Shown here piece by piece: positions 11,537-14,872 of a stretch of 41,387 nucleotides of DNA. A model generated the notes under the pieces. The model had not been told where the DNA came from, ran no database searches, and worked only from the letters and a program-made list of their open reading frames with translations. Source of the stretch: Gammaproteobacteria bacterium (lineage in GTDB: Bacteria > Pseudomonadota > Gammaproteobacteria > GCA-001735895); the NCBI GenBank assembly GCA_024229615.1, contig JAAESG010000574.1:1-41387 (forward strand). Reading direction: 5' to 3'. The translations under genes and the position numbers were made by a program. Each line of letters opens with the position of its first letter. The first letter of the stretch is position 1.

Positions 11537-13315
11537 ATGTGCGGTTTATTTGGTGCTCTGAGTTATGACGCAAACGCGATAAGTCCTGATCAAGCGCAGT
11601 GCATGTCGGCCAGGGTTGCGCATCGCGGGCCGGATGACAAGGGCGAGTATTTCGATGGGCCCGTGATGCTCGGACACCGGCGACTGGCGATCATCGACCT
11701 GTCCGCCGCGGGTCATCAGCCGATGCAGGATAGTAGTGCTCGTTATCATATTGTTTTTAATGGAACCATTTACAATTACCCTGAGCTGCGCGAGATTTTG
11801 ATTGCCAGGGGTTACCAATTTGACTCCCATAGCGATACCGAAGTCATTCTCAATGCCTATGCCTGCTGGGGAGATGCTTGCGTTGAACGATTGCACGGTA
11901 TGTTCGCGTTCGCAATCTGGGATTCAAAGTTGCAAAAACTGTTTCTCGCCCGTGACCGCATGGGCATCAAGCCGCTTTATTATGCACAGTCGGGACAGGG
12001 TTTTTATTTCGCTTCCAATCCCCAGGCGTTGCTGGCAACCGGCCTGTTCGCGAGCGACATCGACCCGGTAGGACTGCACCATCAGCTGAGCTTGCATGCG
12101 GTCATTCCGGCACCACGTACCTTGATCAAGTCAATCCGCAAGTGTCGCCCCGCTTACTATATGAATGTAACGCCCGATGGCAAGATCGTCGAGCAGCGTT
12201 ACTGGTCGTTACTGGCGAAGCGACCCGCCGAAGCAATGTCTGCAGACGACTGGAACTCCGCTATCCATGAATCATTGATGCAGGCGGTGAAGAAGCGGCT
12301 CACGATTGCTGACGTACCGGTTGGCGTGCTGCTTTCAGGCGGACTGGACTCCAGCCTTTTGGTAGCATTGTTGGCCGAGGCCGGACAGCACGATATTCGA
12401 ACCTTCAGTATCGGTTTCGAAGACCAGCCGGAGGAACGCGGTAACGAATTTGAATTTTCCGATCCCGTCGCGCAGAGATATGCCACCGATCATCACAAAT
12501 TTCTGATTCCCAATGCCGAAGTGCTGACGCGACTGCCCGAGGCTGTCAATGCGATGGCGGAACCCATGTTTGGTCAGGATGCAATCGCTTTTTACCTGCT
12601 CTCGGAACAGGTTTCAAAGTCAGTCAAGGTGGTGCAAAGCGGGCAGGGCGCGGATGAAGTATTTGCCGGATACTTTTGGTATGGGCAGATGCAAGCGGCC
12701 GAGGGCGATGCGCTTGAGCGTTTCGCGAGTCGTTATGTCGACCGTGAGCATGCAGAATTCTGCGATACGGTGGCACCCGCTTATCGAGGTGAAGACTATA
12801 CTTCTGCCCTGATTGAGGAAAATCTGAGTAGCGGGCAGGCCGATAGCTTTCTCGATGCGGTTTTGCGATTTGATGTCACCACCCTGATAGTCGACGATCC
12901 GGTCAAACGGGTCGATAATATGACCATGGCCTGGGGTCTCGAGGCGCGTGTCCCGTTTCTCGACCACCAGCTGGTCGAACTGGCGGCATCCTGTCCACCG
13001 GAACTGAAACTGAAACATCAAGGCAAGGGTATTCTCAAGGAAATTTCACGTGGTCGAATTCCCGACGCGGTGATCGATCGCCCCAAAGGATACTTCCCCA
13101 TGCCGGCGTTGAAATATGTACGCGGGGATTTTTACCATTTCATGGCGGATACGCTGAATAGTCAGCGTAGTCGTGAACGGGGGCTGTTTAACCGTAATTA
13201 CATCGATCGTTTACTCGATGAACCTGAACAGCATTTTACACGGCTTAACGGCAGTAAACTCTGGCACAGCGCCTTGCTCGAATACTGGCTTCAGCAACAT
13301 ATCGATCAGCCTTGA
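11537..13315 (+). CDS. Asparagine synthase-like glutamine amidotransferase, probable N-acetylglutaminylglutamine amidotransferase
   Basis: A 592-residue protein with an N-terminal class II glutaminase domain (nucleophile C2 in MCGLFG, then RGPDDKG and FNGTIYNY) and a C-terminal synthetase domain with PP-loop LLSGGLDSSLLVALL. Several segments match the subfamily that makes the osmolyte N-acetylglutaminylglutamine amide more closely than ordinary AsnB: HAVIPAPRTLIKSIRK, NEFEFSDPVAQRYATDHHK, SGQGADEVFAGY and DDPVKRVDNMTMAWGLEARV. The usual partners (the N-acetylglutaminylglutamine synthetase and a peptidase) are not in the window. An AGG ribosome-binding site precedes the ATG. Plain asparagine synthase AsnB is the alternative. 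Confidence 0.88.
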   Translation: MCGLFGALSYDANAISPDQAQCMSARVAHRGPDDKGEYFDGPVMLGHRRLAIIDLSAAGHQPMQDSSARYHIVFNGTIYNYPELREILIARGYQFDSHSDTEVILNAYACWGDACVERLHGMFAFAIWDSKLQKLFLARDRMGIKPLYYAQSGQGFYFASNPQALLATGLFASDIDPVGLHHQLSLHAVIPAPRTLIKSIRKCRPAYYMNVTPDGKIVEQRYWSLLAKRPAEAMSADDWNSAIHESLMQAVKKRLTIADVPVGVLLSGGLDSSLLVALLAEAGQHDIRTFSIGFEDQPEERGNEFEFSDPVAQRYATDHHKFLIPNAEVLTRLPEAVNAMAEPMFGQDAIAFYLLSEQVSKSVKVVQSGQGADEVFAGYFWYGQMQAAEGDALERFASRYVDREHAEFCDTVAPAYRGEDYTSALIEENLSSGQADSFLDAVLRFDVTTLIVDDPVKRVDNMTMAWGLEARVPFLDHQLVELAASCPPELKLKHQGKGILKEISRGRIPDAVIDRPKGYFPMPALKYVRGDFYHFMADTLNSQRSRERGLFNRNYIDRLLDEPEQHFTRLNGSKLWHSALLEYWLQQHIDQP

Positions 13316-13479
13316 AACCTGAATCCGTGGGTCCATAGCGGTGCATAACGCAAGCCTTTGATTCCACAGCGGTTCAAAAAATGCCTGCTTAACCTAAGGG
13401 TGAAACTCATATTTTTTGATTCCACTGTGAAATCAAATTCTCACGCTCTGCATCCGCCTTGAACCCACGGATTCAGGTT
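13316..13479. repeat. 164-bp imperfect palindrome (ERIC/MITE-like element or structured RNA)
   Basis: The first base after the amidotransferase stop begins a 17-bp arm (13316-13332) repeated perfectly inverted at 13463-13479. Comparing the left half with the reverse complement of the right half, the similarity continues inward for about 72 columns with about 55 identities, including TTTGATT, CACAG and TCAAAAAAT blocks. The centre, about 13390-13405, is unpaired. All seven transition differences are of the kind that pairs as G-U in a minus-strand transcript. No T-tract follows, so a simple terminator is unlikely. Confidence 0.8.
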
Positions 13480-13488
13480 GAAAAAAAG

Positions 13489-13566: not shown

Positions 13567-13893
13567 ATGGACGTCCTGGAACGTATTAAGCAACAAGTCG
13601 AAACCCATCCGGTCATTATCTACATGAAAGGCACTCCGCAATTGCCCCAATGTGGCTTTTCCAGCAGGACCGCGGAGGCCTTAAAGTCCTTGGAAATAGA
13701 ATTTGCCTATGTCAATGTATTGTCTGACCCGGAGATATTTCAAAATCTGCCGCGTTTTGCGGATTGGCCTACCTTTCCCCAGGTTTACGTCGATGGTGAA
13801 TTAATCGGTGGTTGTGATATTACCCTGGAAATGCATGAATCGGGAGAACTGGAAAAAATCGCCAGGGCGGCACTGAGCGCGCGCGCAAACTAA
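13567..13893 (+). CDS. grxD: Monothiol glutaredoxin Grx4/GrxD
   Basis: A 108-residue monothiol glutaredoxin that binds a [2Fe-2S] cluster as a glutathione-bridged dimer and takes part in Fe-S transfer and iron sensing. The diagnostic CGFS active site is in PQCGFSSRTAEAL, preceded by YMKGTPQLPQ. The GSH-binding segment WPTFPQVYVDGELIGGCD is intact. The length is typical. Clustering with rnt and pyrC recalls the Pseudomonas arrangement, although here a receiver protein lies between and the strands converge. A strong terminator follows. Confidence 0.95.
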   Translation: MDVLERIKQQVETHPVIIYMKGTPQLPQCGFSSRTAEALKSLEIEFAYVNVLSDPEIFQNLPRFADWPTFPQVYVDGELIGGCDITLEMHESGELEKIARAALSARAN

Positions 13894-13908: not shown

Positions 13909-13941
13909 AAAAAGCCCCACTGGTTAAAGGGGCTTTTTTTT
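13909..13941. terminator. Bidirectional rho-independent terminator after grxD
   Basis: AAAAAGCCCC (13909-13918) and GGGGCTTTTT (13929-13938) pair around a 10-base loop, with T8 to T9 downstream on the plus strand and T5 on the minus strand. It serves grxD and the convergent response-regulator gene. Confidence 0.93.
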
Positions 13942-13969
13942 GCCGGTGCTAGTACTCCTTGAATGAGTA

Positions 13970-14872
13970 CTAGTATATCGGCGCGCATGCCTGATGTGTC
14001 AGGCTAATGATTTCAGTCACCGAAGGCGCCGGATCGAAACCGTGGCCGTACCAGGTACCGATTGATATGTTCAGCTGTTTACCCTGGTCGGTGGTTTGCA
14101 TGGTGTGTCGTTTGATGCTTTGTATCAGGCGATCAAACAAATCCGGATCGAAAACCTGCGGATCCTGGTAATGTACCGACACCGCGAAGGTATTGATGCT
14201 GAAGCGGAAAACCATATCCATCGGACGCAGTGAAAGCTGAATCGAATTGGCGATCGTCTTCAGTGTTCCCAGGCGTAAAGCATTGTTCGGCGAGGTGACT
14301 TCTATCAATGCAATACCGAGACCTCCACCGCGAGCGTTGCAGTGCTCGATTAGAGATTCGACATGCACCTCGAGCTGAGCGCGATTGGGCAGGTTAGTCT
14401 CCGGGTCTAGCAGACTGAATTGCTTGACCCGCAAGAATTGGCTGGTGAGTGTACGCATGCGCCCGCGTAATTCATTTTGTTGAAAGGCATTGCGACCGGC
14501 TCCATAAACTCTGGCCGCAAGTTCGAACTGATTGGCTGATTTGGAGATGAAATCGTCTACCCCTCGGTCAAACGCAACCACGATACTCGAGGCGGTATCT
14601 TCTGCCGTGAGCAGCACTATGCCGGTATAGCGATCGTTATTTTCATCCCAGCGGCGAATCAGGTCAGTCATCTCAAGGCCGTTCATACCCGGCATCCAGA
14701 AATCAGCCAGAACGACATGTGCGCGTCTTTGATTGAGTAAATAGAGTGCTTCGTCTGCCGAAGACGCGGTACGGATATCTGTGTAACCCGATTTGCCGAG
14801 GCCGGATTTCACCACTTCGCGGCTAAATTGCAGGTCGTCGACGACAATTATAGAGAGATCTTCTTTGCGCAA
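13970..14872 (-). CDS. Response regulator with a degenerate GGDEF-like output domain
   Basis: A 300-residue protein. Residues 1-125 are a complete receiver domain: acidic D12/D13, phospho-acceptor D57 in ADFWMPGMNG, T89 in LLTAED and K111. After a helical linker (about 125-150), residues 155-300 have the outline of a GGDEF domain: entry motif DPETNLPNRAQLE, and at the signature position SINTF (225-229) instead of GGDEF. It is therefore unlikely to make c-di-GMP. No cognate kinase is adjacent. A 9-bp inverted repeat (13949-13973) covers its stop codon, just before the shared terminator. Confidence 0.85.
   Translation of the reverse strand: MRKEDLSIIVVDDLQFSREVVKSGLGKSGYTDIRTASSADEALYLLNQRRAHVVLADFWMPGMNGLEMTDLIRRWDENNDRYTGIVLLTAEDTASSIVVAFDRGVDDFISKSANQFELAARVYGAGRNAFQQNELRGRMRTLTSQFLRVKQFSLLDPETNLPNRAQLEVHVESLIEHCNARGGGLGIALIEVTSPNNALRLGTLKTIANSIQLSLRPMDMVFRFSINTFAVSVHYQDPQVFDPDLFDRLIQSIKRHTMQTTDQGKQLNISIGTWYGHGFDPAPSVTEIISLTHQACAPIY

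Follow-up and report, generated by a model that had tools for sequence, protein, structure and literature searches.

A palindromic MITE between an amidotransferase and a glutaredoxin gene

The window analyzed here is the whole stretch of 41,387 nucleotides taken from a gammaproteobacterial genome assembly (5.24 Mb, 735 contigs). Its plus strand carries an intact gene for N-acetylglutaminylglutamine amidotransferase (11537–13315; TIGR03104, E = 3.8e-276), followed by a gene for a Grx4-family monothiol glutaredoxin (13567–13893; TIGR00365, E = 4.5e-43). The intervening region harbors a palindromic MITE of 160 bp (13318–13477), whose ends were set by comparing 54 full-length copies together with their target duplications. 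The left terminal inverted repeat CCTGAATCCGTGGGTC (13318–13333, plus strand) was delimited by pattern search and by comparison with IS1380-family ends. The right one, CCTGAATCCGTGGGTTCAAG (13458–13477, minus strand), corresponds to a 20-bp unit found elsewhere as a probable scar. On both sides the element is bordered by the direct repeat TTGAAA (13312–13317 and 13478–13483), assigned as target-site duplication from the sequence and the duplication statistics. Since the interior contains no ORF of 90 aa or more, there is no transposase gene within the 160 bp.

The initial annotation had described a 164-bp palindrome at 13316–13479, which started one base after a stop codon with a perfect 17-bp arm. 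The inverted repeat is indeed present, and either strand folds much more stably than shuffled sequence; its borders had to be moved to 13318–13477. The terminal AA/TT of the 17-bp arm belongs to the 6-bp target duplication, which by chance prolongs the pairing by these two bases at each end. The TGA stop codon of the amidotransferase gene (13313–13315) lies inside the left duplication, so that the gene keeps its end, and the element proper is found two bases past the stop. Two further structures are located downstream of the glutaredoxin gene. At 13910–13941 a terminator-like hairpin with a T run (AAAAAGCCCC...GGGGCTTTTTTT) was recognized by eye, and a near-perfect 25-bp palindrome, CTAGTACTCCTTGAATGAGTACTAG, occupies 13949–13973. 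Sites of the latter type occur about 26 times in the genome (reversed control: 0), and they are perhaps a third short palindromic repeat, either a scar or a REP.

Copy number, target-site duplications and distribution

Copies were collected by sequence searches, and copy counts per genome are therefore minimum values. In its own genome the element has 27 matching places in direct orientation at E<1e-18, the window copy and 26 others, with many partial matches sitting at contig ends. The end motif CCTGAATCCGTRGGTTC occurred 72 times with up to two mismatches, compared to 2 occurrences of the reversed control. Among the classifiable sites, at least 17 contained a full-length element (159–161 bp) and at least 20 only the 20-bp unit CCTGAATCCGTRGGTTCAGG; many fragments were found besides.

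Perfect 5-bp direct repeats flanked 31 of the 54 non-redundant full-length copies, whereas 1.4 were expected from shuffled pairing of the flanks. Four more copies displayed a 6-bp repeat, and other lengths were at chance level. The 20-bp copies likewise showed 27 perfect 5-bp duplications (approx. 1.2 expected), which corresponds to 27 of 76 once truncated long copies were removed. The duplications are A+T-rich, mostly with T in the first and A in the last position, and the flanks reveal a symmetric target preference of approximately GAY-TWWWA-RTC. A crude ORF call placed 53 of the 54 full-length copies between genes. By all criteria open to sequence testing the element is a MITE: it is short, lacks a transposase gene, has terminal inverted repeats, is dispersed and is flanked by target-site duplications. 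The suggestion of a mobile palindromic element is thus borne out by multiple dispersed copies, by their target duplications and by terminal repeats common to IS1380-family elements. The ERIC-like variant of that suggestion is not, because Correia and ERIC elements target TA, in contrast to the 5-bp duplications of the present MITE.

Several contigs start or end in or beside the element (C54, C72, C89, C93, C163, C167, C213, C395, C482, C497 and C700, among others); the palindrome probably breaks the assembly. Half elements that stop near the palindrome center were observed as well (L026/L038, C121:8729–8809; L027, C132:10454–10531). They look as if they had been broken at the hairpin tip and then joined to other DNA.

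Within the genus, the end motif (at most one mismatch) was detected in 4 of 31 genomes, the other three of which hold just 2 or 3 occurrences each. One further genome of the taxonomic family, G035, gave clear MITE matches. The matches listed from a scan of 84,980 species genomes included Sedimenticola, Chromatiales, Chromatiaceae, Candidatus Thiodiazotropha, other gammaproteobacterial MAGs and Geothermobacter, as well as scattered single matches compatible with chance. In Geothermobacter hydrogeniphilus, which lies outside the Gammaproteobacteria, a 163-bp copy flanked by the duplication TTCCA was found (L097:5849–6011), and this sequence suggests horizontal transfer. Phage and plasmid collections yielded no match to the element. 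No Rfam family reached its gathering score; there were weak matches to plant and other microRNA precursors, the best with 26.7 bits against a threshold of 70.

Terminal sequences shared with IS1380-family elements

Ends starting with CC in combination with 5-bp duplications raised the suspicion of an IS1380 relationship, as these are features of its member ISEcp1. Consistent with this, the 11 bp at the MITE ends, CCTGAATCCGT, match the ends of IS1380-family insertion sequences. The genome G035 contains, in addition to the MITE, an intact 1652-bp element of this kind (L188:1378–3029) with perfect 16-bp ends, CCTGATTCCGTAACTT, a duplication of CATAA and a transposase of 448 aa (NF033539, E = 1.8e-94; PF13701, E = 1.7e-27). 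Two other IS1380 elements, L230 and the multicopy L219, end in CCTGAATCCGTATTTT/CCTGAATCCGTAACTT and CCTGAATCCGTGTTCC/CCTGAATCCGTGCTCC, respectively, and the fragments L198, L201 and L202 retain one CCTGAATCCGT-type end each. The MITE end agrees in 11 of 11 bp with L219, L230, L198, L201 and L202, and in 10 of 11 with L188. Transposases associated with CCTGAATCCGT-type ends share 42–85% identity with that of L188 in the main stretches of the alignment, while those with other ends (L187, L218) reach about 22%. As the grouping by ends agrees with the grouping by transposase, the MITE end carries in its first 11 bp the terminal sequence of a single IS1380 subgroup. The shared end comprises these 11 bp plus TT, short of a whole terminal repeat.

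In the 735 contigs of the MITE's own genome, no complete IS1380 element belonging to this subgroup was found. Four IS1380 fragments are present, none with these ends, and the single alignable one is 24% identical to L188. The pattern CCTGAWTCCGTRACTT gave three near matches in this genome, two of which are MITE ends. The helper element may lie in an assembly gap or have been lost. A candidate autonomous element with two ends 1469 bp apart (L094) was rejected because the span holds an apparent host gene, a 353-aa ORF presumably of the truD type as judged by eye, and no transposase gene.

From these terminal sequences and duplications, it is very probable that the element is a non-autonomous MITE moved in trans by a DDE transposase of the IS1380 subgroup with CCTGAATCCGT ends. 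No IS1380-derived MITE is described in the accessible portions of the open-licence literature that name both MITEs and IS1380, IS1380 is absent from a 2024 review of prokaryotic MITEs, and the papers listed in a literature search with the terminal sequence were all unrelated.

Short copies and a second MITE family

A second MITE family is present in the genome. It is approx. 222 bp long, has the ends CTAGCCCGCATTTCTCACC and about 40 matching places (L245–L274; e.g. L247:1501–1722). Its ends resemble those of another IS1380 subgroup (L187, L228), and all 8 copies tested fold better on one strand. Members of this family act as carriers of the 160-bp family. Several of them have an empty insertion site, GACATAGTGTC or GCTCGACATAGTGTCAAC. 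In several others the 20-bp unit resides at the same site with ATAGT duplicated, and these copies are exactly 25 bp (20+5) longer. Further carriers contain longer parts of the 160-bp element at this position, which end at contig borders. The 20-bp unit occurs in both orientations.

Because empty, 20-bp and longer states exist at one insertion site, the 20-bp form is very probably a deletion scar; as judged from these sequences, many copies were reduced at their site of insertion to the same remnant of 20 bases. Slippage during replication would leave such a scar; the direct repeats involved, TTCATG/TTCAGG (or CCTGAA), lie one at each end of the hairpin. In the scar L256 the unit ends with TTCATG instead of TTCAGG, the version of the left-end repeat having been kept. 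Nearly precise excision of Tn10 is a similar process; a literature search on this subject produced nothing useful.

Strand bias of the hairpin

The initial annotation had pointed out that all seven transitions between the arms give G-U pairs in a minus-strand transcript. For the window copy, RNA folding yielded −99.9 kcal/mol for the minus strand (z = −15.5; none of 200 shuffled sequences as low) and −76.3 kcal/mol for the plus strand (z = −11.4). DNA folding was biased in the same direction (−53.3 and −42.8). Without exception, the 34 copies of subfamily A and the 18 copies of subfamily B folded better on the minus strand. The consensus of 34 aligned copies comprised 61 pairs at −73.2 kcal/mol on the minus strand, 20 of them with double changes that keep the pairing, in contrast to 27 pairs at −16.0 kcal/mol and one such pair on the plus strand. 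In the minus-strand structure 96.6% of cells were paired, and 20 pairs (67 cells) were changed on both sides. None of 500 shuffles reached this number of double changes, and structures slid along the alignment were far lower.

The RNAalifold structure had been fitted to the minus strand and could favor G-U columns by construction. We therefore repeated the counts with a pairing in which G-U and A-C receive the same score. With this symmetric pairing, the minus strand of the window copy displayed 61 Watson-Crick, 9 G-U, 1 A-C and 8 transversion pairs; the bias of the transitions was real, with nine of ten rather than seven of seven. Subfamily A contained 326 G-U and 41 A-C cells, and recurrent G-U was found in 16 pair columns compared to one with recurrent A-C (sign test p = 0.0003, to be taken as indicative only because copies share ancestry and because subfamily B can be oriented against A with less certainty than the copies of A among themselves). 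In subfamily B there were 90 G-U and 21 A-C cells, with 5 and 0 recurrent columns. The minus-strand preference thus recurs in the homologous copies and is accompanied by compensating changes.

Changes confined to a single copy behaved differently. Among the copies of the own genome 6 such changes led to G-U and 14 to A-C, the opposite direction if any, and in subfamily B they were even (14 and 15). In subfamily A, changes from a Watson-Crick pair that are present in four or more copies comprised 9 to G-U and 0 to A-C, compared to 15 and 13 among single-copy changes (Fisher p = 0.015, likewise indicative). Moreover, in tandem gene pairs the strongly folding strand was sense in 15 and antisense in 12 cases, so there is no orientation preference, and no promoter- or terminator-like site was detected in the element. 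At the locus in the window both flanking genes read the plus strand, i.e. the weakly folding one. Of the proposed long RNA hairpin made from the minus strand, the fold itself is conserved and compensated throughout the family; the missing promoter-like site, the gene orientations (15 vs 12), the unbiased private mutations and, at this locus, the direction of the neighboring genes speak against the transcript.

The only perfect WATCAANNNNTTR motif in the window, the IHF-type site AATCAAAGGCTTG, is located inside the element (13351–13363, minus strand); the estimated chance expectation is about 1 for the window and 0.005 for the element. Of the 34 copies in subfamily A, 31 carry ATCAANNNNTTR on the minus strand, as do 15 of the 18 in subfamily B, almost always at the same position, while its spacer positions are variable in A and not the same in A and B.

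Discussion

Unbiased private mutations and the lack of an orientation preference indicate that any constraint acts on the mobile lineage and not on a host RNA at this site. This is what a constraint, or a biased process, in spreading lineages would produce if copies decay neutrally after insertion; the data do not support use of the hairpin by the host where copies have inserted. Minus-strand pairing is respected by inherited changes and not by post-insertion changes, from which we infer, with about even odds, that spreading elements were selected for a hairpin on one strand. This would act either as single-stranded DNA during replication or transposition or as RNA; G-T is tolerated in DNA as G-U is in RNA, and the data fit both. 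The transposase would bind both MITE ends, and IHF would bend the 160-bp element so that the ends can meet. The stricter proposition that no IS1380-type MITE spreads unless one particular strand can fold into a bulged, G-U-tolerant hairpin is speculative, and we consider it unlikely in this form.

The main rival explanation for the strand bias remains a frozen accident, in which mismatches of one direction in the founder, due to chance or to strand-biased mutation such as cytosine deamination on an exposed strand, were inherited without selection on a hairpin. It concerns the strand bias only and has a substantial chance of being correct, though one short of even. The private changes (6 G-U and 14 A-C in the own copies), the shared ancestry that leaves columns not fully independent and the absence of a gene-orientation bias speak for it. 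It accounts poorly for the bias of variable columns (16 recurrent G-U vs 1 A-C) and for the 20 pairs in which both partners have changed in a compensating way, a number not reached in 500 shuffles. Subfamily B, too, has a different interior and yet shows 5 G-U vs 0 A-C columns and a better minus-strand fold in 18 of 18 copies, and G-U columns alternate with A-U and G-C, a pattern that C-to-T changes alone do not give directly. Template switching during replication can preserve hairpins, one arm serving as template for the correction of its partner (PMC8794818); it could give the double changes but would not by itself explain the preference for G-U on one strand. If structure was selected, a minus-strand RNA, either an sRNA or an mRNA hairpin of the type suggested for transcripts of other bacterial MITEs, is a possible though doubtful form of it. 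The strong strand difference in RNA folding energies is in line with such an RNA, transcripts of palindromic MITEs appear in the accessible part of a study on Coxiella (PMC5896051), and RNA effects of MITEs are described for Neisseria and Yersinia (PMC2229807). The absence of a promoter-like site, of a gene-orientation bias and of constraint on private mutations argues against it, and DNA hairpins also tolerate G-T, with a DNA fold that is biased in the same direction (−53.3 vs −42.8).

Two alternatives concern the element itself. The 20-bp copies match the long ones in frequency, have target duplications of their own, and CCTGAATCCGTRGGTTCAGG is itself a small hairpin, as if they were the basic, REP-like mobile unit and the 160-bp form a BIME-like pair of them. 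This is very improbable, as 20-bp, partial and contig-end-cut longer copies share one target position in the carrier repeat, scar L256 keeps TTCATG as slippage between the imperfect repeats TTCATG/TTCAGG would give, and 20 bp leave little room for two transposase-bound ends. Furthermore, 5-bp duplications surround the 20-bp form too, whereas the RAYT-linked REP/BIME elements make, to our knowledge, none. From the position two bases past the stop codon, one might suspect that the amidotransferase gene has its terminator or a host regulatory hairpin here, but this is contradicted as sole explanation by a dispersed family with target duplications; no terminator-like site was detected, and the transcript of the gene would carry the weaker plus-strand fold, so that this reading has next to no likelihood.

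Tn3-type ends are 38 bp long, which would set the Tn3-derived TIMEs apart from the present MITE, whose ends match IS1380. The duplications alone would fit, as TIMEs likewise have A+T-rich duplications of 5 to 6 bp and are mobilized in trans (PMC4133298). Among the repeats resembling the MITE, Correia/NEMIS, ERIC and YPAL are palindromic and 100–170 bp long, the long NEMIS element contains an IHF site, and the effect of ERIC on mRNA depends on its orientation (PMC2229807). The pneumococcal RUP, an IS630-linked MITE, is likewise small and intergenic, and its ends resemble those of the insertion sequence that presumably moves it, but it is 107 bp long, has a TA target and belongs with another IS family (PMC2229807). 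According to the accessible part of the Coxiella study, QMITE1 and QMITE2 are also long palindromic gammaproteobacterial MITEs with stable predicted RNA hairpins, and the CbsR13 (QMITE1-type) loci share an IHF site with the present MITE; they differ in sequence and direct repeats (7–11 nt in QMITE2), and that part of the study mentions no IS1380 link (PMC5896051). IS1380 insertion sequences (ISEcp1 and ISPme1; L188, L219 and L230 here) have ends beginning with CCT like the MITE, and L188 shares the 5-bp duplication. They are approx. 1.65 kb long, in contrast to the 160 bp of the MITE, which has no transposase gene and forms a palindrome along almost all of its length. New with respect to the open-licence literature is an IS1380-linked MITE that is palindromic almost throughout, folds one-sidedly and has uniform scars; otherwise it is an ordinary MITE.

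The palindromic MITEs are tied in this way to the IS1380 family. Its member ISEcp1 spreads beta-lactamase genes, and for this element the exact pathway of transposition and the fate of the donor site are described as unknown (PMC9330008). The MITE family provides a natural experiment on three questions. Two of them are which strand of a palindrome is constrained, and whether this happens before or after insertion. The third concerns the deletion of long palindromes from bacterial chromosomes, for which a single site in this genome offers the empty state, the scar and longer forms. If the dependence of spread on a one-strand hairpin were true, single-strand folding would be part of how these derivatives of DDE transposons replicate or transpose.
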